The notes beneath the pieces are model-generated. The model had not been told where the DNA came from. It did no database searches and saw nothing but the letters and a program-made list of their open reading frames with translations. A DNA stretch of 49,526 nucleotides, from positions 1 through 49,526 of the forward strand of contig JAGHJD010000045.1 in assembly GCA_017886895.1 (NCBI GenBank), read 5' to 3'. The DNA is from Clostridia bacterium (lineage in GTDB: Bacteria; Bacillota; Clostridia; Christensenellales; Borkfalkiaceae). Below, one piece after another: positions 1,501 to 22,352 of the stretch (positions are counted from its first letter, which is position 1; every line of letters starts with the position of its first letter). Made by a program: the position numbers and the translations under genes.

Positions 1501-1659
1501 ATGGTATAGGTAATACACGTTGTTTTGTCTTTTTCAATAAATAATTTTGAAGGTGTTTGACGGGATCATTCTTTCTATTTTGTTTAATATTATAAGCTAA
1601 GCAATGTAGTCATGTTTCAATGAGGTTTGTTTTATTAATATTTTGGTTATATTTATATA

Positions 1660-1688
1660 TTTACTTTCTAATTTCTGTCAGTTATAAT
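1660..1688 (+). promoter_or_regulatory. Promoter of the amino-sugar operon
   Basis: TTTACT and TATAAT are separated by 17 bp. A transcript would start near 1695, about 24 nt before the ATG at 1719, which rules out the 1620 start in the ORF track. No later promoter or terminator is obvious before 9585, so this one may drive six genes. Confidence 0.65.
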
Positions 1689-1718
1689 AAAGAAAAATAT
1701 ATTGCGGAGAAACTTTTT

Positions 1719-4235
1719 ATGACGAAATATAAGAGCGAGCGTGCGATGAGCGAATTAAATTTTGTTGAGCAGGTGGCGAAGATTCTTCAACTTAAAAAAG
1801 AGAAGAGTGAATGGTGTAAATTACCGAGCGGTTGCGCTTATTTAACAGATAATATTATTTTGGCATACCCGCAAGAATCGGGGAATTCACGCTATCCGTA
1901 TTCCTGTGACGGGCGTACATTGTGGGCATATTCTTCGGGAGATATTGTAATGCAAGAGGGTTTGTTTACAATTTTCCCTGATACGACGCGAGGACAAGAG
2001 CCTGTGTGTGCTTTTTTTATCGGCGACGAAGCATGCGGACACTATGTGCCTGTTTCCGTAACGGGAGCGGCGAGCGGGCTGTGTGATGCTGTGGAGCGAT
2101 TTGTAGTGTTTACGCCCGAAGCAGCATTTTATTGTACATTGACGAAAAAAGATATGGTTGTTTTGCGTATTTTTATGGACAAGCAAAAGAACACCTACTT
2201 TTCGGTTTATATAAAAAACATCACTGCTAAAGAGCACAACACATATTTGGCAGCATTTTTCAACCCTTTACTAACGCATGGGGCTGTCGAAGGTTTTTGG
2301 GATAAGTGTTATCGGACGGGGAAGGTGACAGAACATGGTTTTTTATTGGAAACAAAAGAATACTTGTCCGGTAATCGTGTCAACCATTATGCGGTGTTAG
2401 AAAGTGATGCGGGTGAGGAATGTAAAACGACTTCTCGTACACAATTTATGGGAGGTGTTAACAGACAACTTTCTGCTTCAATACCTTTGCAAACGGGGGC
2501 ATGGCAAGGGGATAAAAAAGTTACGGCATTTTCGGAAACGGCGGTTTTCGGAGAACTGCGCCCCTTTGCTTTGGCTGCGGGGGAGGAAAAAACGTTTCAT
2601 TATAAGTTTAGCATCACGCAAGATGTGGCGCCTTTGAATGTAAAAACGAATTGCATAAATGCTGATCGTGCGTTTATACAGAATGTTTCCGTCACGGGAT
2701 ACGTCAATGCAGATAATACGTTCAGTGTGAAAGGGGCCGTCGATGCATTTGCGCCGTATGCTGAAGTGTTTACGCCGTTTTTAAACAATGTGGTGCGACA
2801 AGTAGCTTTTTGTACGCTTTCAAAAAACTATGCCGGACATATGATCGGTATGCGGGATATTTTCCAGCAAATTCAAGGTTCTATTCCGACTATGCCGCAA
2901 TATTGTCGAAAAAAAATGCTTGAGGCATTGAGCTATATCGGAGAAGACGGCCGAGTACCGAGGCAATATTCTTACGGGCAGGCCGAGGGAGCGCTGCCTG
3001 CAATGGATTTGCGCGAATTCATAGACCAAGGCGTTTGGATTATTGCAACGGTGTATACGTATTTGCAATATACGGACGATTGGATGTTTTTGTACGAGGA
3101 GTGCGGGTATTATAAATTTGAAGGAAGGGATGTCAAATTTTCAAAACGAAGGGACGATGTTCTCTCGCATTTGGTCTCTGTTGCAGATTATCTCGTTGCG
3201 AATATAGATCCGGCAACAGACTGTCTGTGTGCATTATATGGCGATTGGAACGATGCATTGGACGGGCTGGGAAAAACCGATAAGCAGCAGCCGTTCGGTA
3301 ACGGGGTGTCCGTTATGGCATCACTGCAACTGTATCAGAATTTAGAGCAGCTTTGCGCGATTTTTAAGCACGAAGGGAAATATTCAGAAAAATTTGCAGC
3401 ATATCAGTCTGTCAGAGAGCGGCTCAAAAAGGGACTGATTCAAAACGCAGTGATCAAAAGTGCGAACGGAAGCAAAAAAATCTTACATGGCTGGGGGGAC
3501 GATCGATCCTATTATGTGGGGAGCGACTGCGATGGCGACGGGGCTTGCCGTGATGGATTAACATCGTATGCGTTTTGGGTGTTGAGCGATTTATTTTTTG
3601 AAACAAGCGCAATTTCTACAGAGGATATTTGTTCTGCTTATCGGCGGTTGGATAGTAAATACGGCTTAAAGACGTTTGAGCCATATTTCCCGGAATCCTT
3701 TACAGAGGTCGGCAGAATCGGACGTTTGCCGAAAGGGACGGCGGAAAACGGTGCAACGTATATTCATGCAACATTGTTTGGGATTTTATCATTGTTTAAG
3801 CTGAAAGAATATTCGTTTGCATGGGAGCAATTGTACAAAATACTGCCATTTACGCATAAGAGTTTATCAACTTCCCCGTTTGTGATGTCAAATTCATATG
3901 CATATAATCCGGAGCTCGGGTTGGACGGGCAATCGATCAGTGATTGGTTTACCGGGAGTGGGTGCGTTTTATTGAAGATATTTTATGATGAAATTTTCGG
4001 AATCAAGCCGGATGCTAACGGCGTTTGGTTTGATCCTGCAAAAATTGCTCCTTTTCAGAAGGCTACTGCGATTATACAGGTCAAAGGCATGCCGCTAACG
4101 ATAAATATATTTTACGGAACATCATCAAATGAAAAAAAATTCGTTTGGCAAGGGCAGGAATACTTTACATCAGCTTTTTATCTGCCAACAGAACAATTGA
4201 AAGAGGACAAAAACGAAATCCGCATATATTTGTAA
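1719..4235 (+). CDS. GH94-like glycoside phosphorylase
   Basis: Cytoplasmic enzyme of about 838 aa, expected to split a beta-linked disaccharide or oligosaccharide with phosphate to give a sugar-1-phosphate. An N-terminal beta-sandwich region is followed by an (alpha/alpha)6-type region with RDIFQ, IGEDGR, a GDWNDA motif near residues 508-513 (the family motif holding the catalytic Asp), TYIHATLFG, and WFTGSGC near the end, all in GH94 order. The ORF track starts at 1620, but the added residues are an unlikely hydrophobic stretch. The ATG at 1719 has a GGAG site and a well-placed promoter; ATG 1746 is a weaker alternative. The substrate is not readable. NagA, NagB and GH20 in the same operon suggest an N-acetylhexosamine-containing beta-glycoside. 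Codon use is AT-rich, unlike the genes after 5239. Confidence 0.75.
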   Translation: MTKYKSERAMSELNFVEQVAKILQLKKEKSEWCKLPSGCAYLTDNIILAYPQESGNSRYPYSCDGRTLWAYSSGDIVMQEGLFTIFPDTTRGQEPVCAFFIGDEACGHYVPVSVTGAASGLCDAVERFVVFTPEAAFYCTLTKKDMVVLRIFMDKQKNTYFSVYIKNITAKEHNTYLAAFFNPLLTHGAVEGFWDKCYRTGKVTEHGFLLETKEYLSGNRVNHYAVLESDAGEECKTTSRTQFMGGVNRQLSASIPLQTGAWQGDKKVTAFSETAVFGELRPFALAAGEEKTFHYKFSITQDVAPLNVKTNCINADRAFIQNVSVTGYVNADNTFSVKGAVDAFAPYAEVFTPFLNNVVRQVAFCTLSKNYAGHMIGMRDIFQQIQGSIPTMPQYCRKKMLEALSYIGEDGRVPRQYSYGQAEGALPAMDLREFIDQGVWIIATVYTYLQYTDDWMFLYEECGYYKFEGRDVKFSKRRDDVLSHLVSVADYLVANIDPATDCLCALYGDWNDALDGLGKTDKQQPFGNGVSVMASLQLYQNLEQLCAIFKHEGKYSEKFAAYQSVRERLKKGLIQNAVIKSANGSKKILHGWGDDRSYYVGSDCDGDGACRDGLTSYAFWVLSDLFFETSAISTEDICSAYRRLDSKYGLKTFEPYFPESFTEVGRIGRLPKGTAENGATYIHATLFGILSLFKLKEYSFAWEQLYKILPFTHKSLSTSPFVMSNSYAYNPELGLDGQSISDWFTGSGCVLLKIFYDEIFGIKPDANGVWFDPAKIAPFQKATAIIQVKGMPLTINIFYGTSSNEKKFVWQGQEYFTSAFYLPTEQLKEDKNEIRIYL

Positions 4236-4252
4236 GGGAGAAGTAAAAAATA

Positions 4253-5236
4253 ATGAAAGTAGCAATAATAGGATTTGGCGCAATTTCACCGTTGCATGTC
4301 AATGCGATCCGTGCGGCGGGTGGCGAACTCACTGCCGTTTGTGATATTGATACTACGCGCTTGGAAAAAGCCGGAAAAGAATGTTCTTGCAGGACCTATG
4401 ATGATTATAGGCAGATGCTTGCAGAAGAAAAACCGGATGTTGTACATATCTGCACGCCGCACTATCTGCATGCGGAAATGATTTGTGCATGTTTGGATGG
4501 AAACATTAACGTACTATGCGAGAAGCCTTTGGCGATCAGCGAACTGCAATTGGAGCAGATCGAAAGGAGCGTTATACGTTCCAATGCGCAACTTGCCGTT
4601 AGTCAACAAAATCGATTCAACGCCTCGGTTCGGTTTTTAAAAGATCTGTTCAAAGATCAGGAAATTGTAGCTGCAAGCGGGAATCTTTGCTGGCAACGCG
4701 ATGCCTCCTATTATAATTCTGCAAAGTGGCGCGGAACGCGTTTACAGGAAGGCGGCGGCGTTATGATCAATCAAGCTTTGCATACGCTCGACTTGCTGCA
4801 ATGGTTTTGCGGGATGCCGAAGTCGGTCATTGCACACAACAGCAACGATACTTTGCAGGGAATTATCGATGTGGAGGAGAGTCAACTCGGTATTTTCAAG
4901 CTGAAAAACGGGGGGCGATTTATCATTACAGCGACAAATGCCTGCACGCACAGTTTCCCGATCACGCTCATGTTCAGAAGTGTAGAAACGGAGGCTGTAT
5001 TGATCGGCGATCATATGGTTGTAAACGGTAAGTTTGTAACGAAGAGCGACGGGTTGCCTATGTTCGGCAAGGAAGAGTGGGGCGTCGGACATATCAATCT
5101 CGTGCGGGAGTATTACGCCTGCCTGCGCGAAGGGCGTAAATTCCCCATTGATTTTTATGAGGCGAAAAAAGTCGTAAAGTTAATATTGGCGTTGTATCGG
5201 TCAGAAGGAAAAGAAGTTACAATTGAGGAGGCGTGA
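4253..5236 (+). CDS. Gfo/Idh/MocA-family oxidoreductase
   Basis: A 327-aa NAD(P)-dependent sugar dehydrogenase. The N-terminal Rossmann fold begins MKVAIIGFGAIS. The family lysine is in CEKP (K91), and a C-terminal alpha/beta substrate domain follows. The start has a GGGAG site and follows the GH94-like gene by 17 bp. Pairing with the next gene, a xylose-isomerase-like TIM barrel, is common in pathways that oxidise and epimerise unusual or modified sugars, so the two probably act in sequence. The exact sugar is unknown. The gene is AT-rich and overlaps or abuts the next gene. Confidence 0.85.
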   Translation: MKVAIIGFGAISPLHVNAIRAAGGELTAVCDIDTTRLEKAGKECSCRTYDDYRQMLAEEKPDVVHICTPHYLHAEMICACLDGNINVLCEKPLAISELQLEQIERSVIRSNAQLAVSQQNRFNASVRFLKDLFKDQEIVAASGNLCWQRDASYYNSAKWRGTRLQEGGGVMINQALHTLDLLQWFCGMPKSVIAHNSNDTLQGIIDVEESQLGIFKLKNGGRFIITATNACTHSFPITLMFRSVETEAVLIGDHMVVNGKFVTKSDGLPMFGKEEWGVGHINLVREYYACLREGRKFPIDFYEAKKVVKLILALYRSEGKEVTIEEA

Positions 5237-5238
5237 AT

Positions 5239-6069
5239 TTGCATACGTTGATTTTATCCGCATTTTCAGACGAATATGCGGAGGAACTGGAAAAGCAGTG
5301 CGAAGCGCTTGTACGGTTCGGTATAAAGTATATGGAGATCCGCTGCGCCGACGGCAAAAACGTTTCCGAGTTTACCGAGTGTGAGGCGAAAAGGATCCGC
5401 AAAACGCTGGACGCGTTCGGTATCGGCGTGTCGGCTGTCGGCTCTCCGCTCGGCAAAACGCTTCCTTCCGAGGCGAGCACGGAGCAGATAGAGCGGGTGT
5501 TTGAAACGGCGGAGATTCTCGGGGCGAAGTACGTGCGCGTGTTCAGCTTTTACCTTCCCGAAGGCGCGGCGCCCGAAAGGTGCCGCGGCGAAGTGCTCGC
5601 AGGGATGGAAAGGATCGTGGCGGCGGGCGAGCGGCACGGGATCCTTCCCTGCCACGAAAACGAGGCGAAAATTTACGGAGAAAGCCCGCAGCGCTGCCTT
5701 GAACTGCTGCAATATTTCGGAGGGAAACTCGGCTGCGTGCTCGACATGGGCAACTTCGTGCTGGACGGGTACGATGCCTGGAATGCGTATAAGCTGTTGG
5801 AAGAGCATATCGAGTACTTTCACGTCAAAGATTCCCTTGCCGCGGGCGCCGTAGTGCCTGCGGGGAAGGGGGAAGCGCGCATTGCGGACATTTTGCACGA
5901 TTACAGGATAAACGGCAAAAAGGATACGTTTATCACGCTCGAACCGCACTTGCAGACGTTCGCGGGCTTAAACGCGCTCGTCGGCAAGAGCTTTGAAAAC
6001 CCGTATAAATACGAAAATCAGGAGGAGGCGTTTGCAGACGCGGTGCGCTGCCTGCGCGGATTATTATGA
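5239..6069 (+). CDS. Sugar phosphate isomerase/epimerase (AP endonuclease 2-like TIM barrel)
   Basis: A protein of about 276 aa with the xylose-isomerase-like TIM-barrel pattern: an ILSAFSDEY start, strand E-IRCADG, VRVFSFYLPEG, CHENEAKIYGE, LDMGNFVLDG and YFHVKDS, giving the usual metal-binding Glu, Asp and His residues. It likely interconverts a keto or aldo sugar made by the preceding dehydrogenase. The ORF track starts at GTG 5233, only 1 nt after GAGGAGG; TTG 5239 has a proper 7-nt spacing and is preferred. From here base composition turns GC-rich. The stop overlaps the next ATG (ATGA). Confidence 0.8.
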   Translation: MHTLILSAFSDEYAEELEKQCEALVRFGIKYMEIRCADGKNVSEFTECEAKRIRKTLDAFGIGVSAVGSPLGKTLPSEASTEQIERVFETAEILGAKYVRVFSFYLPEGAAPERCRGEVLAGMERIVAAGERHGILPCHENEAKIYGESPQRCLELLQYFGGKLGCVLDMGNFVLDGYDAWNAYKLLEEHIEYFHVKDSLAAGAVVPAGKGEARIADILHDYRINGKKDTFITLEPHLQTFAGLNALVGKSFENPYKYENQEEAFADAVRCLRGLL

Positions 6070-6824
6070 AAGAGTTTCAGAAAGACAAATTAAAGGTGGA
6101 AATTTACGATACCCGAGCGGAAATGGGGACCGCCGCCGCGCGGGACATCAAGGCGAAGATCGCGCAGCTTCTGGCGGAAAAGGGAGAGATCAACATGATT
6201 TTTGCGGCGGCGCCCTCGCAGAACGAGGTGCTCGCATCGCTTGCAGAAGACAAAGAGATCGAATGGAACCGCGTCAATGCCTATCACATGGACGAATATA
6301 TCGGACTTTCCGCCGATGCGCCGCAGGGGTTCGGCAATTTCCTAAAAGACCATATCTTCGGCAGGGCGCCGTTCAGGAGCGTGCACTACATCGATTGTAC
6401 CGCCGCCGATCCCGAAAAAGAGGCGGCGCGCTATGAAACGCTCCTGCGCGAAAACCCGCCCGACATCGTGGTGATGGGCATCGGCGAAAACGGGCACATC
6501 GCGTTCAACGACCCGCCCGTTGCTGATTTTAAGGATACGCATGGCGCAAAAGTGGTCAAACTGGACGAGGTTTGCCGCAATCAGCAGGTGCACGACGGGT
6601 GTTTTGCCCGGCTGGAAGAAGTGCCGAAGTATGCCATCACGCTTACGGTGCCGACGCTCGTGTCCGCGCCCTGGCTGTTCTGCATCGTTCCCGCAAAGAC
6701 GAAGGCGAACGCCGTAAAGGAGTGCCTTACGGGCGAGATCGGCGAACATTGCCCCGCAAGCATTCTGCGTTTGCAGGAGCATGCTGTTCTGTATCTGGAT
6801 AAAGCCAGCGCGTCGCTGTTATAA
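6066..6824 (+). CDS. nagB: NagB-like glucosamine-6-phosphate deaminase/isomerase
   Basis: A 252-aa member of the NagB/6-phosphogluconolactonase fold, expected to turn glucosamine-6-phosphate into fructose-6-phosphate and ammonia. Motifs include FAAAPSQNE for the phosphate loop, HMDEYIG (Asp76, Glu77) and GIGENGHIAFND (His144). It starts by ATGA overlap with the isomerase and is followed by nagA 9 bp later. It differs from the canonical NagB at 26932 in the phosphate-loop sequence (AAAPSQ instead of ATGTTP) and in having NDPP rather than NEPG, so it may be a distinct subfamily with a related amino-sugar phosphate as substrate. Confidence 0.85.
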   Translation: MKEFQKDKLKVEIYDTRAEMGTAAARDIKAKIAQLLAEKGEINMIFAAAPSQNEVLASLAEDKEIEWNRVNAYHMDEYIGLSADAPQGFGNFLKDHIFGRAPFRSVHYIDCTAADPEKEAARYETLLRENPPDIVVMGIGENGHIAFNDPPVADFKDTHGAKVVKLDEVCRNQQVHDGCFARLEEVPKYAITLTVPTLVSAPWLFCIVPAKTKANAVKECLTGEIGEHCPASILRLQEHAVLYLDKASASLL

Positions 6825-6833
6825 GAGGAGAGT

Positions 6834-7991
6834 ATGATTCGGGTCAAGAGCGATAAAATCATAACGCCGGAGGGACTTTTCGACGGTTATATCTATGCCG
6901 AGGGCGGAAAGATCGCAGAAATTTCCGCCAAGGAGGCGCCCTGCGGCGAAACATATGACTTTACGGGGCTGTACGTTTCCCCCGGGTTTATCGACCTGCA
7001 CACGCACGGAGGGGGCGGGCATGCCTTTATGGACAGCAGTGCGGACGAGGTATTGGCGGGCTGCGATTTTCATCTCTCGCACGGCACGACGACGATCCTG
7101 CCCACCGTTTCGGCGGGGACTTTTTCCGCCATGCGCGATGCGGTGAAAGACATCGACGCCGCCATGCGTTCGGGCAGGGCAAAGGGGCATATCTTCGGCG
7201 CGCACCTCGAAGGGCCGTACCTTTCGGCAAAGCAGTGCGGCGCGCAGTGCCCCGATTTTATTACGCCGCCGAAGCGGGAAGAGTATGAATCGCTCTTTTC
7301 GGAATTTCCGCACAGCATCGCGCGGTGGACGTATGCGCCCGAAAACGACCCTGAGGGGGAGTTCTGCCGGTTTGTCGTCGGTCGCGGCGCGGTCGCGTCC
7401 GCGGGGCATACCGATGCGACGTATCCGGCGATGAAAACTGCGATCGAAAACGGCTGCAGCCTCGTAACGCACCTGTATTCCTGTACGTCTACCGTCACCC
7501 GCTCGCATGGGTTCCGCAGTCTCGGAGTGATCGAGAGCGCATTCCTTCGCGATGAGCTGTTCGTTGAGATCATTGCGGACGGAAAGCACCTTCCGCCCGA
7601 ACTGATCGAAATGATTCTGAAGGTCAAGGGAAAGGAGCGCGTTGTCCTCGTTACCGACAGCCTTGCCATCGCGGGCACGGATATAAAAGAGGGAGTGATG
7701 AGCGGCACGGAATTTATCGTGGAAGACGGCGTGTGCAAACTCAAAGACCGCTCGGCGTTTGCGGGGAGCGTGGCGACGGCCGACCGCCTCGTGCGCGTGC
7801 TTGTGTACGATTGCGGAGTTTCCGTCTGCGACGCGGTGAAAATGATGGCGGAGGTGCCCGCGCGCATCCTGAACGTGAAAAAGGGGCGCCTCGAAAGGGG
7901 GTTCGATGCCGATATTGTCGTCTTTGACGATAAAATAACCGTCCGCAATGTGTTTGTGGACGGAAAAATGCAGACAATGGAGAATTTATAA
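6834..7991 (+). CDS. nagA: N-acetylglucosamine-6-phosphate deacetylase
   Basis: A 385-aa amidohydrolase that removes acetate from N-acetylglucosamine-6-phosphate, feeding NagB. Visible motifs are DLHTHGGGG (about 54-62), HLEGPY with the metal Glu126, SAGHTDAT (His192), VTHLYS (His213), IADGKH and the catalytic Asp275 in LVTDSLA. Length is normal. ATG has an AAGAGGAGAG ribosome site. It is GC-rich like the two genes before it, and the next gene, AT-rich, begins 1 nt after its stop. Confidence 0.93.
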   Translation: MIRVKSDKIITPEGLFDGYIYAEGGKIAEISAKEAPCGETYDFTGLYVSPGFIDLHTHGGGGHAFMDSSADEVLAGCDFHLSHGTTTILPTVSAGTFSAMRDAVKDIDAAMRSGRAKGHIFGAHLEGPYLSAKQCGAQCPDFITPPKREEYESLFSEFPHSIARWTYAPENDPEGEFCRFVVGRGAVASAGHTDATYPAMKTAIENGCSLVTHLYSCTSTVTRSHGFRSLGVIESAFLRDELFVEIIADGKHLPPELIEMILKVKGKERVVLVTDSLAIAGTDIKEGVMSGTEFIVEDGVCKLKDRSAFAGSVATADRLVRVLVYDCGVSVCDAVKMMAEVPARILNVKKGRLERGFDADIVVFDDKITVRNVFVDGKMQTMENL

Positions 7992-7992
7992 G

Positions 7993-9585
7993 ATGCTTAG
8001 AACACTTGGGGTAATGATTGATTGTTCCAGAGATGCCGTGTATACTGTTGAAACCCTGAAAGAGTATATAAAGGTGCTTGCGGCAATGGGGTACAATGCG
8101 CTGTTATTGTACATGGAAGATGTCTATGAATTGGAAGGGGAACCATATTTTGGGTATCTGCGTGGTAAATATACTAAAAACGAATTGCGCGAGATAGATG
8201 AATTTGCCAAAAACAGCGGAATCGAGCTGATCCCATGCATTCAAACGCTTGCACATCTTGGAGGCATTACGCGCTGGAATGCATATAAAGATTTTACAGA
8301 TACGGGGGATATCCTGCTGGCAGAGGATGAGCGTACCTATATCTTGATCGAAAAAATGTTTGCGGCTTGTGCTTCGTCTTTTACTTCCAGGCGAATCAAT
8401 ATCGGTATGGATGAAGCGCATATGGTCGGGCTTGGAAAGTATTTGGACCGGCACGGATATCAGGATCGATACAGCATTTTACTGAAACACTTGCATCGGG
8501 TGCTTGAAATAGCTTCCCGCTACGGGTTCCGCCCTATGATGTGGTCGGATATGTTTTTCAGGCTCGCGGCAAAAGGAGAGTATTATTGTAACAAAACTAT
8601 CCCGCAGGAAATTATCAATGCCGTTCCTGAGGGCGTTGAACTGATATATTGGGATTATTACAGCATAGAGCGGGAACATTACAAAACAATGCTGGCGGCG
8701 CATAAACAGTTTCGCAACAGAATTGTTTTTGCGGGAGGCGCCTGGTCATGGAGCGGATTTGCTCCGGCAAACCGGTTCAGTATGCGCGCAAACTATGAAG
8801 CGTTACATGCTTGCGCAGAGAATGACGTGCAGGATGTTTTTGTAACGAGTTGGAAAGATGACGGCGCAGAATGTTCTCTTTTTGCGACATTGCCCGCCAT
8901 GCTCTGTTTTGCTGAATACGCGCGCGGAAATTACGATATCGGGAAAATCAGCACCAAATTCAAAGCAATCACGGGGATTGCCTTTGACGACTATTTATTG
9001 GCGGATGATGTAAATTTGAGTGACGATACTGCAGCACGGAATCCGTCAAAATATATGTTATATAATGATTTATTTTTAGGTATTTTCGACTGCTTTGTGA
9101 AAGAAACGGACGCGGAAAAATTTACAGAATTAAAAGAGCGGCTGGATATGGTTGCGAAAAACAAGAGATATGGGTACATTTTCCGGACGCTATCTGCCTT
9201 GTGCGGCGTATTGGAGATCAAATATTCGCTGGGTAATAGAACGCGGCAGGCATACAGAGCGGGTGATCGTGCGGCGTTGGAGCATATGCAAGAGGAATAT
9301 ACAGTACTGATCCGCAGGCTGAAAAAGTTTTACCGCTTGTTTCGCGCTCAGTGGGACAAGGAGTGCAAGCCGAATGGCTTTGAAAAGCACGACATTCGTT
9401 TTGGCGGGCTGATTTTCCGCACAGAGCATTGCCGCAAGCAGATTGAAGAGTATTGCCGGGGCAAGCGCAAAGACATTAATATGTTGAACGAAGATATCTT
9501 GCCTTTCGATCAAACATTGGAAAAAGGGCAATATATTAATTTTAACCGCTGGCACAATACGGCGATGATCAAGCCGCTGCAATAA
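7993..9585 (+). CDS. GH20-family beta-N-acetylhexosaminidase, cytoplasmic
   Basis: A protein of about 530 aa that likely removes terminal N-acetylhexosamine from imported oligosaccharides. A TIM barrel begins at once (LGVMIDCSRDAV), with YTKNELREIDEFA, ELIPCIQTLAHL and the GH20 Asp-Glu pair in GMDEAHMVG (D140-E141), then MMWSDMFFR and IYWDYY. There is no signal peptide, so it acts inside the cell on products of the importers. The ORF track begins at 7948 inside nagA; ATG 7993 matches the family start and has GGAG 10 nt upstream. It lacks the usual N-terminal GH20b domain. It ends 22 bp from the convergent araC gene with no clear terminator between. Confidence 0.82.
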   Translation: MLRTLGVMIDCSRDAVYTVETLKEYIKVLAAMGYNALLLYMEDVYELEGEPYFGYLRGKYTKNELREIDEFAKNSGIELIPCIQTLAHLGGITRWNAYKDFTDTGDILLAEDERTYILIEKMFAACASSFTSRRINIGMDEAHMVGLGKYLDRHGYQDRYSILLKHLHRVLEIASRYGFRPMMWSDMFFRLAAKGEYYCNKTIPQEIINAVPEGVELIYWDYYSIEREHYKTMLAAHKQFRNRIVFAGGAWSWSGFAPANRFSMRANYEALHACAENDVQDVFVTSWKDDGAECSLFATLPAMLCFAEYARGNYDIGKISTKFKAITGIAFDDYLLADDVNLSDDTAARNPSKYMLYNDLFLGIFDCFVKETDAEKFTELKERLDMVAKNKRYGYIFRTLSALCGVLEIKYSLGNRTRQAYRAGDRAALEHMQEEYTVLIRRLKKFYRLFRAQWDKECKPNGFEKHDIRFGGLIFRTEHCRKQIEEYCRGKRKDINMLNEDILPFDQTLEKGQYINFNRWHNTAMIKPLQ

Positions 9586-12548: not shown

Positions 12549-15500
12549 ATGAATGTAAAGACAAAACAGGGCATCCTGGTTATGCTTATTTTTTGCATTG
12601 TGCTCAGCATTGCCCTGGCACTCTGTTTTCATTTCAGCATAAAATCTGTGCTGGCAGTAGGAGGAGGTTCCGATTATTTCATCACGGACCAAACAGATAA
12701 TGAAACTGTAGAGGTTGATTATTATAACGATTGCTATAAGGAAGGGAATCTTCCCGGCAATGTCATCATAGCGCTTGACAGGGATATCGGAGCGAGTTTG
12801 ACGTTTACAACGAGCGGGCGCGTCAATAGTATCAAATGGGCAGTGTGCATTGAGAAAGAAGATGACACTTATAAGGTGACCCAAAGTGGGTCTGGATTTA
12901 CAGCGGTTGGAACGTCCACGGGCAATGGCGGGACAGTCGATATTCCGCAGGACGGGTATATCCTGTTTGCCAAAGGCGACAAATGGAGTACCGAACTGCA
13001 AAAACTTAAAGTTGGTGATACAGTCAGTGCGTTACAGAAGGCGGACGGTACCGTTACGGCATGGAACAATGAATTGAAGCAGGCAGTCGCCGTCAGAGGG
13101 ACGAATGAACTCAGAGACGGAAAGACGACCGTATATACGGAAGGATATTTTTCGACAGTTTCCGGAACTGCTTACAGCATTGTGACAGCCGTTGCCGATA
13201 CGGAAAGTGATGACTATATTGTAACAAGCAAAAGAATGTATGCAAGCAGCAGTTCGGCGCAGGATATCATCGTCCCCTCCGGGGGGATTGTTTTGGTTTC
13301 ATCGGGCGAGATACAGGCGGGTTCTACATATAGTTATGCAAATCCTTTCATGCAGGCAACGAAAGCAGGCGATACGATCAGTATAGAGATTCCGGAAAGG
13401 AGCGGCGTGGCAAGGTATATCCGTAACACGACGCAAAGCTCGGTTATTCCCGTCTACTTCTATAATGATTTTTATAAAGATTCCGGTAATAGTTCGTGCA
13501 TAGGCAATATTCCCAACCATTCCGTTGTTTATATTGACAGGACGGTTTTGCCTGACGGCAATTTAGAGATCCGCAATGGCGCAGGGAAAAATATTGTTGC
13601 GCTTGTCGCAAGCCCTAATGGAGAGAATCAATATACCGCAGCCGCATCCGTTGTCCCTTCAAACAGTGACAGCAGCAATTATGAGCTCACTATTCCTGAA
13701 GACGGGTATGTGTTGTTTGCGCGGGGTTTTGAATGCGATACACTTAAGGCAGTAAACGGCGGCGATACTTTGAGCGGGCTTTTTGAAAGGAAAGGGAACG
13801 ATTACAGCACGGCAACGCTGCAAAGCGATAACGGCTATTATGTACTGGATATCCCGGAGAAATTGAATGTAAGGGGCGGAAATTTCAGTGTTTATTCGGG
13901 GACAGATGTGTCGCTGACGGAAAAAGACGGCTATATCTTGGCAGCATATGATTTTGAGAAGAATGTTTACATCGTTTCCGAATGCGGTAAGGGGACCGGC
14001 AGCAGCATGACCGTTCCGTCCAATTCAATTCTTCTCGTACAAGATACAACTCTTGCAGACAAATTTAATTATAGCCGTCCTGCCGTTCTGAATGCGGTTG
14101 CGGGTACCGTCATTACATATGATGGATACGAACCGCAGAGGGAGCAACTTCCTGCTGTTGATTTGACTATCAACGGTTATGTGGTGGACGGGATCAATCC
14201 CGCAAGTGCCGGCTATAATATGGATGGAAAGATCATCGTCTACACATCCACGGAGATGCGCGAGCGCGACGCAGAATACGGTAGCGAGATAAATGCCCCG
14301 TATAGGGTGATGACATATGCGCGTTCGGAGGCGGGCGTTAAAAATATCAGTGTTCGGATGCAAAAAACGCAGTCCGGTTATAAGCATATCGTTGCGGCAA
14401 TCACCGACGGTTCCGAGGCGGCAAAGATCCCGTATGACGGATATATTATCAGTATCCCCGCCGCGGCGACAGGATATATCGAGCTGACAGGATTGCAGGT
14501 CGGGGAAGAACTTACGCTTGCAGGGAGCGATTCAGCTTTCCGGCTTCCGGAATATGTTCTTGATAATGTTACGAAAAATATACGGATCGAACTCAGCGGA
14601 ATGAACATCGATCCTGACTACTCCGGGTTCATCGTTTATTACGACGAAACGTTCGGTGCTGCAGATCCCGCTAAGGCATGGCGCCAGCGTGTGATCGTAA
14701 ATGCCGAGGGGATGATCACGGGCACGCATGCTTATGGCAGTGCGGTAGAGCCTGTTACGATCCCCGCGGGAGGGTTTGTTCTCACGGCAAACGGGGCGAC
14801 GGCGGGCTGTGCGGAGCTGAACACATTCTCGGTCGGCGACACGTTAGAGTTCTACAATATTCATGGGGAAACGGATGCAACGCTTGCCTCGCTTTCCGTC
14901 AATTCCGATGCGGTGGAAAATTTTACTCCTTCGCGGTACCACTATTATGTATATCTCGAAAAGGGAGCCGCAGTGCCGGAGGTAACTTATACGGCATCGA
15001 ATGCAAATGCGCAGGTTTCGGTGCAAATGCCCGCGTCGTTGCCGGGTAATTGTGTGATCACGGTAACGGCTGAGGACGAGGCAACCGTATTCACGTATAC
15101 GATTGAACTGTTGTATAATTACAGCAGGGATATGGGATTGGCTTCTGTCACGGTCGGAGGATCGGTGTGGAGCAGTTTTGATCCTGCGGCAGAACCGAAC
15201 TATTATTATATTGAGAAAGGGGAACCCATTCCCGATATCAGTGCTGTTGCAACTTCTGAATTTGCAACGGTTACATGCGAGCAGGCAAGTGAATCTACTT
15301 TGCGCGCGGTGATCCGTGTTGTAGCAGAGGATACTGCATACATCAAAGAATACGTCATCGAATTTGTGGAAGTGGATCTTTCACTTTCAGAGATCCTTTT
15401 GGACGGCGAAGCACTTACCCTTTCCGGCGAACGTGAATATACAGTTCCGATTCCTGCGGGAACAGAGATGTATCCCGTGGTTTCCGCGACAGGTACCGAT

Positions 15501-15761
15501 CTTTCGGCTCACATTTCGATCGTTCAGGCGGGAGGTACAAGAAACCGTGCCGTTATTACAGTCACAAATTACGGGCTCTCTGCTGAATATACAATTCTTT
15601 TCGATTTAGAAGGCTCGGCAGAAGAGCAGCCGCCCGAAGATAGCGGTACTATGCCCGCGTGGCAGATAGTTCTGATTATCGGCGGGGCGCTCGCCGGGGT
15701 AGGAATTATAGTCGGACTTTCCATGTATTTTACCAAAAAACGTAGGGGAAATAAGCAGTGA
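12549..15761 (+). CDS. Giant membrane-anchored surface protein with repeated beta-modules and cadherin-like domains
   Basis: About 1070 aa. A signal peptide covers residues 1-38. Four to six repeats of a roughly 130-200-aa beta-rich module follow, each containing IP-x-x-GY-IL-x-A-G and then a VGDT-type turn (for example IPQDGYILFAKG, IPEDGYVLFARG, IPYDGYIISIP, IPAGGFVLTANG). Three cadherin-like beta-sandwich repeats (about 775-1025; LASLSV, LASVTV, LSEILL starts) precede a C-terminal membrane helix and basic tail KKRRGNKQ. It has no visible catalytic domain. It likely binds glycans or spaces enzymes on the cell surface. The same module occurs in the next protein. The start ATG 12549 has GGAGG 8 nt upstream; the TTG at 12546 is an alternative. 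Confidence 0.75.
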   Translation: MNVKTKQGILVMLIFCIVLSIALALCFHFSIKSVLAVGGGSDYFITDQTDNETVEVDYYNDCYKEGNLPGNVIIALDRDIGASLTFTTSGRVNSIKWAVCIEKEDDTYKVTQSGSGFTAVGTSTGNGGTVDIPQDGYILFAKGDKWSTELQKLKVGDTVSALQKADGTVTAWNNELKQAVAVRGTNELRDGKTTVYTEGYFSTVSGTAYSIVTAVADTESDDYIVTSKRMYASSSSAQDIIVPSGGIVLVSSGEIQAGSTYSYANPFMQATKAGDTISIEIPERSGVARYIRNTTQSSVIPVYFYNDFYKDSGNSSCIGNIPNHSVVYIDRTVLPDGNLEIRNGAGKNIVALVASPNGENQYTAAASVVPSNSDSSNYELTIPEDGYVLFARGFECDTLKAVNGGDTLSGLFERKGNDYSTATLQSDNGYYVLDIPEKLNVRGGNFSVYSGTDVSLTEKDGYILAAYDFEKNVYIVSECGKGTGSSMTVPSNSILLVQDTTLADKFNYSRPAVLNAVAGTVITYDGYEPQREQLPAVDLTINGYVVDGINPASAGYNMDGKIIVYTSTEMRERDAEYGSEINAPYRVMTYARSEAGVKNISVRMQKTQSGYKHIVAAITDGSEAAKIPYDGYIISIPAAATGYIELTGLQVGEELTLAGSDSAFRLPEYVLDNVTKNIRIELSGMNIDPDYSGFIVYYDETFGAADPAKAWRQRVIVNAEGMITGTHAYGSAVEPVTIPAGGFVLTANGATAGCAELNTFSVGDTLEFYNIHGETDATLASLSVNSDAVENFTPSRYHYYVYLEKGAAVPEVTYTASNANAQVSVQMPASLPGNCVITVTAEDEATVFTYTIELLYNYSRDMGLASVTVGGSVWSSFDPAAEPNYYYIEKGEPIPDISAVATSEFATVTCEQASESTLRAVIRVVAEDTAYIKEYVIEFVEVDLSLSEILLDGEALTLSGEREYTVPIPAGTEMYPVVSATGTDLSAHISIVQAGGTRNRAVITVTNYGLSAEYTILFDLEGSAEEQPPEDSGTMPAWQIVLIIGGALAGVGIIVGLSMYFTKKRRGNKQ

Positions 15762-18700
15762 GGAAAAAATTAATTTTTATATTGTTGGTTGCGGCACTTT
15801 TTTGTCTGATGGCCGGCTTTATGGTTGTGGTCGTGGCGGCGGAAACAAATACGGTCACGGCAGACCTGATCGATCCGATCACGCTGACCCGCGGCGAAAG
15901 GGCTTCTGACACAGATCAGGACCGGACCCTTATTATTGAAACGGCAAGTTCTGATGAAATAGCCGATAAAGTGATTGTTTATACGGGCAGGTTCTACTAT
16001 ATGGATTCCTATGTCCGTACGGGTGCGGTAGAATATGCGGTAGCGATTACAGAACAAGGGCACCAGATCGTTACAAAATATGAACCCATTGCGCAAGGCG
16101 CCGAACAGGGGAACGAAATCCCTGTTCCCGGATATCTGCTCAGTATCCCGGCATCAAAAGCAGAGAGCTGCGATTTTGCAGAAGGCGATATCATCACCAT
16201 TTCCAATGCAGGGGATATCCCGTCTGTTTCACAAACGGTCGATAACCTGACCAAGCGTGTCCGCGTTGAAATTCAAAATCTGAATGCGGCGACCAATACT
16301 TATGCCGGGTCGGTGTACTATGGAAACGATTATGGTGACGTAACGGGGCAGAATAGCTATAACCGTGAAGTCGGCTTTTCGCTCCTTACCACAGGCGATG
16401 ATGTGGGAAAATTCCGAGTGACAGAATACCGTCAGCTTTTAGCGGATACGCGGCAGGAATGGGTGAACGGTGAATCGAGTGATGTGGCTTGGAACAGAGA
16501 TTTTCCCATTCCGGATCCCGGGTTTGCCCTGATTGCGGCGAATGTGGAAGATTATGATGATCCGTATGTCCATGCAGTATTCGGCATGCTCAACAGGGAT
16601 GTTGCTTTTTCGCTGGGCGATCTTGTAGAGCTTTCCGGAAAGCAGTTCTTTGATTTCGAATATGAAGTTACGCACAGTTATGACTATCTGAATCCGGGGC
16701 CTGAAAATGTATTGGGACAAGGGTATCCGGAGAATCGGGGTGCAGAGCAGATGATGATTTATACGCACTCCGTGGAAGACGGTTCCAGTGAGTTAAAAAC
16801 GAATGAATACGGATTTGAAGCGGCAGTCGATCAAAACGGGGTGATCGTCAAAATCGCTGTAAACGTTATCGATATCCCGGAAGGAGGTTTTGTCGTTTCG
16901 GCACAGGGTCTGCTTCGTGACTGGGCACGTACGTACTTCAAAATGGGTGCAACGGTAACATATAACGAGCAGAACAAAACATTCACGGTAAATTATACGC
17001 TCAATGCAATGAAGAGCCAGTTGGAAACGGATCTGAGCACATACAGGACAGAAGTGGAGGTCTACAAAAACGGCCTGTATGATTTGGATACGACGAATCT
17101 GGAATCTTATTTGGAAGAACTGACCGAGACGGGGGAGCGAATGGTCGAGGTAATAGACTATATCCAAGCATATCCTGATCTTGCAGGGGAAGAACTTCTT
17201 GAACAGCAGATCGAACTTCGCAATCTGCGCGATGAGTTCGAGGCGATCAAAGTAAATATGTCTGTTTCGTCTGTCGAAAGTCGTGTCGTTGAAGGCAGGG
17301 GCGTATGGCATGTTCCGAACGTTGACGGAACAGAAACTTCTCTTGCAGGAATCCGCGGTGTGCTGGATGTGTTTGAAAACATGAACCTGAACATGATTTT
17401 CCTGGAAGGGTATTATGCAGGATACACGCACTCTGTGAGCCAATATGTACCGCAGAATCCCTATACAAAAGCATATGATTACAGCGGCACGGAGGCGGAC
17501 GAACAATACGGGAACGATTATTTCAAAGCATTTGTGACAGAGGCAAAAAAACGGGGTTTTGAAGTGCACGTTTCCATTACTGTGTATTATATGAGCAGAA
17601 CAGATCGTTGGGTTGATGAGCCTGACCGGCTTGCGACTGTTCATCCTGAGTGGGTCAATGTTTCCAATGAGGGCTATACAGCCACCAGTGATGGTCATCA
17701 GGCCATTTTTGCAGACCCCGCCAATGATGCATACCATGACATGTTGGTGAATTATGTAACAGAATTGTTCACGTTGTATCCAGAGGTGGACGGCATCAAT
17801 CTCGATTATATCCGCTATCCGGATAAGTCATCGGCAGGGCGCGAGTTCGGTTACACAATGACATCCGTGCAAAAATTCCTGGATACATACGGGTATACAT
17901 TCCGCGGCGATGATAACCCGGATGAGGCGCAGCTGCGTGCAGATTTCGATAAATTTATATCCTCGGACGCAACGATCGATGCGCAGTGGGATAATTTCCG
18001 CCGGTCACTGGTCACGCAGATGGTGGTGGACCTGCGTGATGCGATGCGTGCCGTAAAGCCGGGCGGGCTTGTCTCTATTGCGACAGGGCCTTCCCCCGAT
18101 GAGTCAAAGAACAATTTATACCAGGATTGGGGACAATGGGTCAGAAGCGGCATTATTGATCTCTGCACGCCGATGGCATATTATACGGATGCCGATGTAG
18201 TTGAAAATATCGCGGGGCAGGAAATCACCATAATCAACAATCTCGCTTATAATTACGTCGGGCTGGGACCGTACCTGAAACTTGCTCCGAATGAATGGGT
18301 AAATCAGATCAGTGCCGCGCAGTCGGCAGGAGCAATGGGGTATGCTCTTTTCAGTTCGGAGCAGGTGTTAACAGATCCGGATGCTGTAGCACTTGTAACG
18401 CAGACGGCAAACAAGAATGAAGCCGTTGTTCCTCATGCGGCGACCTCCGTGATCCTGGATGCATTTTTTACTTCGATCCTCGAAAAAGCGGACAAGTATT
18501 ATCTGCCTAATAATAGCATGACGCAAACGCAGTATGATAGTTTGGCTGCAGTATTTGCCGATATCCAGGCGATGCCGGACACGACGGCGAAAGAGCTTTA
18601 TGCGATCTACGAAAGGGTGCAAAACCTTATCAGCAACGTAGACGATTATGTCTCGTTCTACGCAGAAAGCAGGCTCCGTTCCGATTTGAATCTGTTGTCA

Positions 18701-18955
18701 TCGAACCTTAACATCAAGGTTGGTCGGGCGCTTGTGGAAAGCGGGCAATGGAACCCGTCGGTCAACCTCGCAAGACCGATATTGTCAGAAGGGCAGGCAA
18801 ATCGTATTGTTTGGCAAACACAGCAGAGTACTCCCGAAGAAACGGAGGATTGGACGGCTTTCGGCATTGCGCTTGCCGGTATGGTCATCTTAAATGCAGC
18901 ACTTGCAGGTTGCATCGTTGTATTGAATAAAAAGAAAAGGAGGAATGAAACATGA
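15758..18955 (+). CDS. Surface-anchored GHL10/DUF187-family glycoside hydrolase
   Basis: 1065 aa. A signal peptide (1-28) is followed by three or more copies of the IP-x-GY/GF...GD module seen in the preceding protein (about 30-420), a helical linker rich in E and L (about 425-505), and a TIM-barrel glycosidase-like domain (about 508-870) with GRGVWHVPN, FEVHVSITVYY, HPEWV and DGINLDYIRYP, the hallmark of the GHL10/DUF187 group. A helical stretch, a membrane helix (about 1025-1050) and the tail KKKRRNET complete it. It starts at GTG overlapping the previous stop (GTGA). It probably cuts a polysaccharide at the cell surface; the bond is unknown. Confidence 0.82.
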   Translation: MRKKLIFILLVAALFCLMAGFMVVVVAAETNTVTADLIDPITLTRGERASDTDQDRTLIIETASSDEIADKVIVYTGRFYYMDSYVRTGAVEYAVAITEQGHQIVTKYEPIAQGAEQGNEIPVPGYLLSIPASKAESCDFAEGDIITISNAGDIPSVSQTVDNLTKRVRVEIQNLNAATNTYAGSVYYGNDYGDVTGQNSYNREVGFSLLTTGDDVGKFRVTEYRQLLADTRQEWVNGESSDVAWNRDFPIPDPGFALIAANVEDYDDPYVHAVFGMLNRDVAFSLGDLVELSGKQFFDFEYEVTHSYDYLNPGPENVLGQGYPENRGAEQMMIYTHSVEDGSSELKTNEYGFEAAVDQNGVIVKIAVNVIDIPEGGFVVSAQGLLRDWARTYFKMGATVTYNEQNKTFTVNYTLNAMKSQLETDLSTYRTEVEVYKNGLYDLDTTNLESYLEELTETGERMVEVIDYIQAYPDLAGEELLEQQIELRNLRDEFEAIKVNMSVSSVESRVVEGRGVWHVPNVDGTETSLAGIRGVLDVFENMNLNMIFLEGYYAGYTHSVSQYVPQNPYTKAYDYSGTEADEQYGNDYFKAFVTEAKKRGFEVHVSITVYYMSRTDRWVDEPDRLATVHPEWVNVSNEGYTATSDGHQAIFADPANDAYHDMLVNYVTELFTLYPEVDGINLDYIRYPDKSSAGREFGYTMTSVQKFLDTYGYTFRGDDNPDEAQLRADFDKFISSDATIDAQWDNFRRSLVTQMVVDLRDAMRAVKPGGLVSIATGPSPDESKNNLYQDWGQWVRSGIIDLCTPMAYYTDADVVENIAGQEITIINNLAYNYVGLGPYLKLAPNEWVNQISAAQSAGAMGYALFSSEQVLTDPDAVALVTQTANKNEAVVPHAATSVILDAFFTSILEKADKYYLPNNSMTQTQYDSLAAVFADIQAMPDTTAKELYAIYERVQNLISNVDDYVSFYAESRLRSDLNLLSSNLNIKVGRALVESGQWNPSVNLARPILSEGQANRIVWQTQQSTPEETEDWTAFGIALAGMVILNAALAGCIVVLNKKKRRNET

Positions 18956-20529
18956 AAGCAATGAAACGAATCGTTATGGTTTTTTTGGGCATTCTGTTTG
19001 TCTTTTCCTTGGTTGCCTGTTCGCAGGGAGTCGAGTCGGATCCCGTTATCCCGTTGGATATAAACACCGAGGCCTCGGCAGATGAAAAGCCCACCCTGAA
19101 TATTCATTTGCAGGCATCCGGATATTCGGAGGCGGAGCTGAACCAGCAATATGCGGCAAAAGTGATCAGCGAGATCACGGATTATAACGTGCGTTATTCG
19201 CAGCTTCCCGCAACGGGGGACACGGAGGCGCTGGATCTTGCTCTGATCAACAGGTCGCAGTACCATGCGATCAAAGTGACAAAAGAGCAATATAACAGGC
19301 TTGTTGCGCAGGGAGCCCTCTTGAACATTAAACCGGCATTGGATAAATTCGGGCAGGATATTTATGATGCTTATTATGATTATTCGTGGAGCATTGTAAG
19401 TAAAGACGGCGGGATTTACGGTATTCCGGAAGGAGGTCCTCCCATCAAAGGACAGACAAATGTTATAGACTGTATTATTTTCAGGAAGGATCTTTTGGAT
19501 TCCTGGCAGAAGCATGTTCCCGAAACAACAGAAGAATTTGAAGAACTTTTGCGATATGCAAAAACTGAACAGGGAATCCAGTACCCGTTTGTCATGACGG
19601 ATGAAAAGGCATTGGTGCCCACCATTGCAGTTGCCTTTGACATTTATCAGGAATGGCAGGGGGATAACGGGGATTACCATTTCTATCTGGAAGATCAGAA
19701 CATGAAGTCCTATTTGGATTATATGATTAGCCTGAACAATCAGGGATTGCTGAACCCCGATTCGCTGATCTACGATAAGGCGGATGCTGTGCGCAATTTC
19801 GGGGAGGGGAAGGCTGTCGCGGTGGCAGTAAGCGTATACGAAGTCGATGCCATATTGAGCACGCTGATAAACAGCGGCATCATTGCAAGCGATAAGGACT
19901 CCGAAGAAGTGCTGAGCGTTGTTGGCGGGTTTGAAGACTCAAACGGCGAGGTGCATACATATCATACGGGCGGTTACTCCTATGTGACAGTCATACCGAA
20001 ATATATGTATGAGGAAGCCGGGTACACGATCGATCACATCAATAAAAAGATCATTGAAGAAAATTTCAAGAGGTACTATATTGGTGAAGAAGGCGTGCAC
20101 TATACGGTTACCAGCGGACCTGACGGCGATTTGATTTACAGACCGATTGAGGGAAAATTCGATGAATTGAATTCGGCAGCCGGATTTTGTACGGGTACAA
20201 ATCCTAAGGCAAGCCCTCCGCTATGGCGTTGCCGTGTCTATAATAAAGAGTATCTTCCTTTCCTGATGACTTTGAATGAAAATTCAGATGCCGAAGGTAC
20301 CTATAATCCGATGAATTTTACTTCGGAATTGCCCACATACGATCAGGTAAAAGGTGTAGTCGAGCAAGATGCTTGTGATGCATGCCTCAATATGATTTTT
20401 ACGCAAAAAAGTTCTGATGGGCTTACTGCAGCGCTGAATACTTGGTTGAATGCCGGTGGCAGAACGGGGAAGCAGGAACTTGCTGCCTGGGCAAAGGATA
20501 ATTGGGAAGGGAAAGTTAAGGTAGAATAA
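18952..20529 (+). CDS. Sugar ABC transporter solute-binding lipoprotein (LplA-like)
   Basis: A 525-aa CUT1-type binding protein. A signal peptide ends at a lipobox (SLVAC, Cys23), after which the mature protein would be lipid-anchored outside the membrane. The body has the extracellular solute-binding pattern (DLALINRSQYHAIK, YGIPEGGPPIKG, FRKDLLDSW, YAKTEQG). Length and motifs fit the LplA/YtcQ group that captures oligosaccharides, often pectic or other complex glycans. It starts by ATGA overlap with the GHL10 gene and is followed directly by two permeases. Confidence 0.9.
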   Translation: MKAMKRIVMVFLGILFVFSLVACSQGVESDPVIPLDINTEASADEKPTLNIHLQASGYSEAELNQQYAAKVISEITDYNVRYSQLPATGDTEALDLALINRSQYHAIKVTKEQYNRLVAQGALLNIKPALDKFGQDIYDAYYDYSWSIVSKDGGIYGIPEGGPPIKGQTNVIDCIIFRKDLLDSWQKHVPETTEEFEELLRYAKTEQGIQYPFVMTDEKALVPTIAVAFDIYQEWQGDNGDYHFYLEDQNMKSYLDYMISLNNQGLLNPDSLIYDKADAVRNFGEGKAVAVAVSVYEVDAILSTLINSGIIASDKDSEEVLSVVGGFEDSNGEVHTYHTGGYSYVTVIPKYMYEEAGYTIDHINKKIIEENFKRYYIGEEGVHYTVTSGPDGDLIYRPIEGKFDELNSAAGFCTGTNPKASPPLWRCRVYNKEYLPFLMTLNENSDAEGTYNPMNFTSELPTYDQVKGVVEQDACDACLNMIFTQKSSDGLTAALNTWLNAGGRTGKQELAAWAKDNWEGKVKVE

Positions 20530-21464
20530 TGAAAAATCAACATGCGCTGAAATTCAGGTTAAAAAAACATTGGTCAACGCTTTTGCTGCTATTGCCTGCG
20601 GTCGTACTGGGTGTTGTTTTTTCGTATGTACCGATGGTCGGTATTTTAATGGCATTTAAGACAAATCTGAATTTGTACATCTATGAGCCATTTACTGCAT
20701 TCTTGAATGCGGAATGGACACTGGAAAATTTTCAGATCATTTTTGCAGGCGAAGAGTTCTTAGGCGTTCTTTGGAATACCTTATATATCAGCGTTTTGAA
20801 AATCGTTGTATTATTTCCGCTACCGATTATTGTTTCCCTTCTGCTTACAGAAGTAAAAAATATTCGCGCATCCCGTATGTACCAATCATTGATGTATTTA
20901 CCGCACTTTCTGTCATGGTCGATTATCACGGGTATTTTCATGAGTGTATTCGCGACAGACGGCTTGGTAAATAACGTTCTTATTTTGTTTGGGATGGATG
21001 CAAGTGAGGCGGTGAATTGGTATACGGATCCATCAAAATTTGTTTTTTTGGTTTTGTTTACCGACGGATGGAAGGGAATAGGTTGGAGCAGTATCGTATA
21101 TATTGCGGCAATCAATGCAATCAGCCCGGAGTATTACGAGGCATCGCGTTTGGATGGTGCAGGGAAACTCAGCCAAATTTGGTACATTACCTTACCGTTG
21201 ATAAAAAATGTTATCGTAACAATGCTAATTATGCGCATCTGCTATATTATGGATGCCGGATTCGATCAGATTTATACCATGCATAATGCGGCAACAAGAC
21301 CGGTATGGCAGATCATTGGTACGTACATATACGAAAAGGGTCTGCAGCAAGGGAATTATAGTTTCAGTACTGCAGTCGGGTTATTCAATTCAGTTGTTGC
21401 ATTGATTATGATCCTTGTAGGGAATTTTGTAGCCAAAAAGATTTCCGGGAAAGGAGTGATTTGA
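20529..21464 (+). CDS. Sugar ABC transporter permease (LplB-like)
   Basis: A 311-aa inner-membrane subunit with about six membrane helices. The coupling loop EASRLDGAGKLSQIWYITLP is the EAA motif that contacts the ATPase. The start overlaps the previous stop (TAATG), so translation is coupled. No ATPase gene is present in the operon, so a shared MsmX-type ATPase from elsewhere is expected to energise it. Confidence 0.92.
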   Translation: MKNQHALKFRLKKHWSTLLLLLPAVVLGVVFSYVPMVGILMAFKTNLNLYIYEPFTAFLNAEWTLENFQIIFAGEEFLGVLWNTLYISVLKIVVLFPLPIIVSLLLTEVKNIRASRMYQSLMYLPHFLSWSIITGIFMSVFATDGLVNNVLILFGMDASEAVNWYTDPSKFVFLVLFTDGWKGIGWSSIVYIAAINAISPEYYEASRLDGAGKLSQIWYITLPLIKNVIVTMLIMRICYIMDAGFDQIYTMHNAATRPVWQIIGTYIYEKGLQQGNYSFSTAVGLFNSVVALIMILVGNFVAKKISGKGVI

Positions 21465-22352
21465 ATGAAATATGCGAGCAGAAGAAGTAACTTGTTGCGA
21501 GTAAGAAAACACGAAGGATTGGGTTTTTCGATTTTTGTGCATATTTTTATGACGGTGTTTATCTTGCTTTGTGTTTTGCCGTTTATTCATGTCATTGCTC
21601 TTTCTTTTTCCGGCGCGGGTTATGCGATTGGGCTTATTCCGCAGGGTGTAACTTTATACTCCTATAATGTTGTTTTTGAAGACAGTGGCTTTTTTCAGGC
21701 TTTTGGAATGTCTTTGATGGTTGCGGTTGTCGGTACTTTGCTTTCTGTATTGGTTAATTTTTTGGCGGCCTATGCTCTTTCAAAGCGCGATTTACCGTTC
21801 CGTAGATTTTTCAACTGCTTTTTTGTGATCATAATGTTGTTTTCGGGCGGTATCATACCGAATTTTTTGTGGTATAGGATCATCGGACTCGTTGATACAC
21901 CGATTATCTTGATTCTTCCCATGGCGGTCCAATTCTATTATATTATGTTGATGACAACATATTTGGAGAATCTCCCACAAAGTATCGAAGATGCGGCATG
22001 TGTAGACGGCGCCGGGAAACTAACGTTGCTTTGGTATATCATTATGCCGATGGCTGTTCCCATTATTTTAACGGTTGCTTTGTATACGTTGGTGGGGTAT
22101 TGGAATAATTATCAGCTTGCGTTGTATTACTTGCCGACCAGAACAGAGTATTATCCGCTATCGATGTTTATTTTGAACTTCATTAATGGCAGCGCTATCA
22201 ATGACTATGTCGGAGATATCGAAAAGGCTAACCACAAAGACAATATAGAGGCGGCGCTTATTGTTTTATCAGTCATTCCAATTATAATAAGTTACCCGTT
22301 TTCATTGAAATATATTGTAAAAGGTAGTTTTGTCGGAGCTGTAAAAGAGTAA
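21465..22352 (+). CDS. Sugar ABC transporter permease (LplC/YtcP-like)
   Basis: A 295-aa second permease subunit with about six membrane helices and the coupling loop EDAACVDGAGKLTLLWYIIMP. It begins right after the preceding stop (TGAATG). It closes the AT-rich operon, six bases before a strong intrinsic terminator. Confidence 0.92.
   Translation: MKYASRRSNLLRVRKHEGLGFSIFVHIFMTVFILLCVLPFIHVIALSFSGAGYAIGLIPQGVTLYSYNVVFEDSGFFQAFGMSLMVAVVGTLLSVLVNFLAAYALSKRDLPFRRFFNCFFVIIMLFSGGIIPNFLWYRIIGLVDTPIILILPMAVQFYYIMLMTTYLENLPQSIEDAACVDGAGKLTLLWYIIMPMAVPIILTVALYTLVGYWNNYQLALYYLPTRTEYYPLSMFILNFINGSAINDYVGDIEKANHKDNIEAALIVLSVIPIIISYPFSLKYIVKGSFVGAVKE

Follow-up and report, generated by a model that had tools for sequence, protein, structure and literature searches.

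The window analysed here, a stretch of 49,526 nucleotides from a Clostridia bacterium, carries on its forward strand two adjacent genes whose products share a repeated module. The two ORFs overlap by 4 bp, and the gene of an extracellular binding protein overlaps the protein 2 gene in the same way. AAGGAGG lies nine bases 5′ of ATG 12549, and this ATG is hence the most likely start of protein 1. Both proteins were described beforehand as giant, but their actual length is about 1070 aa. The features of the locus are as follows.

1620..9585, + strand: genes for GH94-type phosphorylase, Gfo/Idh, TIM-barrel isomerase-like, NagB-like, NagA-like and GH20C proteins (Pfam)
12549..15761, + strand: protein 1 gene (ORF with SD; ORF 12546/12549-15761, 1071 aa)
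12672..13034, + strand: module A, protein 1 aa 43-163 (held-out HMM, 21.7 bits)
13035..13427, + strand: module B, protein 1 aa 164-294 (held-out HMM, 11.4 bits; shuffle maximum 8.0)
13428..13796, + strand: module C, protein 1 aa 295-417 (held-out HMM, 10.9 bits)
13797..14150, + strand: module D, protein 1 aa 418-535, marginal (PSNSILL motif in register; held-out HMM, 0.0 bits)
14151..14525, + strand: module E, protein 1 aa 536-660 (held-out HMM, 22.1 bits)
14526..14861, + strand: module F, protein 1 aa 661-772, the most typical protein 1 copy (held-out HMM, 26.9 bits)
14862..15605, + strand: three beta-sandwich-like repeats of protein 1, aa 773-1020, cadherin-like/LtfC-like (sub-threshold matches)
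15654..15728, + strand: C-terminal membrane helix of protein 1, followed by KKRRGNK (sequence reading)
15758..18955, + strand: protein 2 gene (ORF, 1065 aa; PF02638 match)
15839..16210, + strand: module G, protein 2 aa 28-151 (held-out HMM, 20.1 bits)
16211..16645, + strand: module H, protein 2 aa 152-296 (held-out HMM, 4.9 bits)
16646..17002, + strand: module I, protein 2 aa 297-415, nearest the barrel (held-out HMM, 58.9 bits; signature table)
17351..18190, + strand: GHL10 TIM-barrel domain of protein 2 (PF02638)
18952..22352, + strand: extracellular binding protein and two ABC sugar-transporter permeases (same order in the relative)

Protein 1 consists of a signal peptide, six modules, three beta repeats and a C-terminal membrane helix, and protein 2 of a signal peptide, three modules, a helical linker, a GHL10 barrel and a C-terminal membrane helix. 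The signal-peptide-like N-terminal stretches, and the membrane helices with their basic tails, were read from the sequence, and on this reading both gene products of this gut-type Clostridia bacterium are predicted to sit at the cell surface, anchored in the membrane. Residues 532-811 of protein 2 match PF02638 (E 4e-23; 82.4 bits against a gathering score of 27.9), a family with no match in protein 1, and the NAGPA catalytic domain (PF09992) matched neither protein at E values up to 1. Protein 1 has no family over the cut-off in Pfam or NCBIfam, in keeping with the preliminary description, which had assigned it no enzyme domain; the LtfC match of the beta repeats (E 0.0045) fell under the LtfC cut-off. 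The only match to a carbohydrate-binding module, CBM60, in the Pfam scan was weak (E 0.17). The same beta repeats (14862-15605) recur, with 44% identity, in a lipoprotein-like protein encoded elsewhere in the genome, again with sub-threshold Pfam matches only. A full-length AF2 model of protein 1, computed with one orthologue, was too low in confidence to use (pLDDT 33).

Module copies and signature residues

Protein 1 contains the strict motif [IV]P..G[YFI][IVLA][LV] at four sites and protein 2 at three; with a looser form the counts are six and three, and a [VL]GD/GxxV turn comes after each. The repeated unit is larger than this motif: it is a small beta domain of about 110-145 aa (approximately 110-120 aa in protein 1), and the copies of protein 1 have diverged strongly (∼20% identity). 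Circularity was avoided by scoring all copies with a held-out HMM built from 28 modules of other genomes only, and 1000 shuffled proteins, whose best domain reached 8.0 bits, served as control. Copies A, B, C, E, F, G and I scored over all 1000 shuffles (5/6 in protein 1, 2/3 in protein 2). Copies D and H fell under the shuffle maximum. Copy H reached E 4e-16 in the iterated profile, which includes an orthologue of that copy. Copy D reached E 0.015 there; it cannot be separated from chance, and its membership is doubtful. The repetition of motif and turns noted beforehand in both proteins was thus borne out in substance, with copy D as its marginal case, as was the statement that the copies represent a domain family. 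The description of protein 1 as mostly modules needs to be qualified: besides its six copies it carries three different beta repeats and the C-terminal anchor. The end of the modular region, placed earlier at 17000, shifts to about 17002, where the protein 2 modules stop.

Groups of copies were compared at the ten positions that are best conserved in the family. The family signature, consisting of an R, TGTN-G and the histidine of SGHG, is nearly invariant in the copies inserted in NAGPA enzymes and in the copies next to a GHL10 barrel. Among the NAGPA inserts 95-100% keep R15, G37 and H67, as do 89-100% of the barrel-proximal copies; among the protein 1-type copies the share is only 0-10%. 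Some of the latter align with just the C-terminal half of the profile, so that R15 and G37 are there counted as absent rather than replaced. H67 is covered in most protein 1-type copies and is never a histidine. All detected protein 1-type copies retain P58 and G61 of IPxxG. In module I, which adjoins the barrel of protein 2, the R, Y and G are kept and the H is replaced by Q. These results show that: i) the signature is strongest beside an enzyme, ii) protein 1 keeps the structural core and lacks the signature, and iii) its detected copies are members of the fold family, of an atypical form. The loss of the signature residues argues against a conserved binding site in protein 1. Glycan binding is a possible role of the module, and one as a spacer, or with altered specificity, would fit at least as well, because the most conserved signature residues of the family are lost in protein 1.

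The module family in other genomes and in solved structures

The family, which has no name, is defined here by two alignments (A1 and A6), the first giving a profile of 18 copies. With the A1 profile the module was found in 160 of the 399 sampled genomes of the phylum. When 28 proteins from the best loci were examined, 21 matched the NAGPA phosphodiester glycosidase domain and 7 the GHL10 barrel. In the alignment of the NAGPA proteins with an insert, the module separates one half of the catalytic domain from the other, and this position within NAGPA/PF09992 phosphodiester glycosidases, which the earlier description did not name, is the main home of the module. The second placement is that of tandem modules ahead of GHL10 barrels; the earlier remark that similar segments occur near GHL10-type domains proved correct in that such proteins were found in the phylum. 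A third placement may exist at one locus (L041:919-2406), where the module seems to interrupt a GHL10-like barrel. An AMIN domain was present in 17 of the 28 scanned proteins (L036-L059), many of them NAGPA proteins bearing the insert, which suggests a cell-wall localisation.

None of 38 isolated module copies (0/18 and 0/20) matched any Pfam family at a meaningful E-value, and Pfam holds no model for the module, as was anticipated when the family was called unnamed. The literature searched, which left out most subscription journals, contained nothing that names the module or presents 6OZD or 5H3K as a described domain. A profile search does not place the module in a described Pfam entry, but it does lead to NAGPA enzymes and to solved structures. 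Residues 307-387 of PDB 6OZD (BPSS2145, Burkholderia) match the A1 profile with E 1e-5, and a second module profile found the same place more weakly (E 0.037); the position of the signature histidine is not occupied by H in 6OZD. The predicted fold was compared for copy F alone among the copies. Its AF2 model, with only window and L005 sequences as input, is of moderate confidence (pLDDT 67.7, pTM 0.63), and its first Foldseek matches in the PDB were 5H3K (Slr0280; E 0.08) and 6OZD (E 0.25), neither of them significant alone. Both structures are NAGPA homologues, the protein family to which the sequence points. A viral fold library gave no significant match. We conclude that the module is present in solved structures, in 6OZD by sequence and in 5H3K by fold and homology.

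The module is uncatalogued yet widespread, and structural data already contain it. Since it is common in the phylum, occurs in solved enzymes and has no Pfam entry, many records of 'family 10 glycosylhydrolase' proteins and phosphodiester glycosidases probably carry an unlabelled domain, and naming the module would make its role testable.

Protein 1 itself is rare. Only one further genome (Clostridia MAG ABMPRH_98_1; L005/L011) yielded a protein of this type, with 45% identity; protein 2 there is 63% identical and the gene order is that of the window (AraC - Gfo/Idh genes - protein 1 - protein 2 - binding protein - permeases). The type was not seen in the other 150 genomes of the family sample or in the remaining genomes of a 327-genome order sample, where other matches concerned the C-terminal beta repeats only; diverged relatives may have been missed in the scan of genome contigs, which relied on exact short peptides. 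Protein 1 is thus a rare, enzyme-free, six-copy array of an uncatalogued but widespread domain.

Gene neighbourhood and possible role

Upstream of the two genes lie genes of hexosamine catabolism (a GH94-type phosphorylase, NagB-like and NagA-like proteins and a GH20C hexosaminidase), together with Gfo/Idh proteins and an AraC-like regulator. Downstream, beyond the binding protein and the two permeases, there are genes for UxuA, KDPG aldolase, a PIG-L deacetylase, a second NagB-like protein and GH130. The GH20, GH94, NagA and NagB proteins encoded at this locus, together with its ABC sugar importer, make an N-acetylhexosamine glycan the probable target here. Further on, at 42850-46577 of the window, an LRR/Big_2 surface protein with an EndoS-LRR-like match (42850-44160) is encoded beside a large protein (44160-46577) that has a sialic acid-specific acetylesterase-like (SASA) domain.

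In two further loci of the order (L012 and L013), GH84 and NanE genes are found near a module-GHL10 gene. NAGPA genes adjoin the related module-GHL10 genes in L013 and L014; these two match PF09992 and gave no clear match to the module profile. At ten other Bacillota loci the module-GHL10 genes do not stand consistently beside hexosamine genes. A general link between module and hexosamine genes was dropped on this ground, and the substrate assignment is limited to the window locus and its lineage. In L014 a DUF4127 protein (246-1763) is encoded directly upstream of the module-GHL10 gene, and the product of L012:6873-8360 resembles another DUF4127 protein by its start sequence; DUF4127 proteins may belong to the same pathway.

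The reading that we favour, and hold tentatively, is that protein 1 is a rod-like, non-catalytic surface partner that captures glycan and presents it to the GHL10 enzyme, protein 2. In most of its carriers the module is part of extracellular sugar-cleaving enzymes, and at the window locus it has been multiplied. Protein 2 is a GHL10 enzyme with three copies and a predicted membrane anchor. Protein 1, likewise with a predicted anchor and lacking an enzyme, strings together six diverged copies and three other beta repeats, and it would hold an N-acetylhexosamine-containing glycan near protein 2. Protein 2 might then cut the glycan held by its presumed partner, the binding protein and the ABC permeases would import the pieces, and GH20, GH94, NagA and NagB would degrade them.

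This capture role is favoured because of the operon and of the divergence between the copies. Further points in its favour are the hexosamine genes of the window, the GH84, NanE and NAGPA genes at other module-GHL10 loci of the order, and the peptidoglycan hydrolase activity of C. difficile Cwp19 (GHL10), with PgaB as a close structural relative (PMC5765458). Its strong rival, only somewhat less probable in our judgement, is that the copies of protein 1 form nothing but a stalk, a stiff spacer through the cell wall that carries the outer part off the membrane and binds no glycan. Such a stalk is favoured by the loss of the signature in protein 1, whose detected copies retain the P and G of IPxxG and keep the R, G and H in 0-10% of cases, and it would fit the C-terminal anchor and the tandem repeats with their low identity. 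It accounts less well for a glycan-uptake operon in which protein 1 adjoins an enzyme with the same modules, in an order kept in a second genome, and strong divergence between copies is equally expected if each had a separate specificity.

We consider it unlikely that the two proteins act on the envelope of their own cell, remodelling peptidoglycan or a wall polymer, instead of feeding on an outside glycan. The GHL10 protein Cwp19 of C. difficile has peptidoglycan hydrolase activity (PMC5765458), and the neighbours of many Bacillota module-GHL10 genes are housekeeping genes; the window pair, however, shares its operon with a sugar-transport system and adjoins catabolic genes. That the IPxxG resemblance is mere chance in beta-rich proteins, with no domain family behind it, is hardly credible. 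Copy D does not rise over the shuffles, nor does copy H when the held-out profile is taken by itself, but seven other copies do, one of them with 58.9 bits against a maximum of 8.0, and 6OZD is reached both by fold, from the copy F model, and by sequence, from the profile. The chance reading fails because the held-out profile finds the copies.

Of the readings weighed, capture and presentation thus remains our preference. The fuller history, in which a glycosidase domain was freed from its enzyme and copied six times to give a membrane-anchored, non-catalytic glycan receptor working with a GHL10 enzyme, is possible but doubtful. If it is true, this would be a Gram-positive surface-capture system made from an uncatalogued domain family. 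The architecture of protein 1 suggests how an enzyme insert can become a non-catalytic surface array.

Comparison with known systems

After the two NAGPA homologues, the next Foldseek matches of copy F were the solved proteins 3pjy and 3m7a. An independent paper reports that these two resemble a DUF192 protein in structure and that 6OZD does so more weakly (PMC12786226). These fold matches are weak (E 0.35-1.8, from a model with the pLDDT given above), DUF192 (PF02643) has no Pfam match in either protein or in the isolated copies, and the profile-profile comparison was not significant. Membership in DUF192 by sequence was rejected, the hhalign score lying within the range of the shuffles (1 of 60 column shuffles scored higher). 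A fold common to the module and DUF192 is a lead only, and membership is not claimed.

The layout of protein 2, with modules, helical linker, barrel and anchor, is identical to that of the GHL10 (PF02638) proteins that carry modules at the N terminus and are annotated 'family 10 glycosylhydrolase'. Unlike these proteins, protein 1 has no barrel, and its copies lack the signature of the barrel-proximal ones. The module itself is common to the window proteins and to NAGPA/DUF2233 glycosidases with an insert (6OZD, BPSS2145; 5H3K, Slr0280), a likeness that the profile shows for 6OZD (E 1e-5) and the fold comparison for both, as the first Foldseek matches. The NAGPA/DUF2233 enzymes carry one copy inside their catalytic domain, whereas the window proteins carry tandem copies and have no NAGPA catalytic domain.
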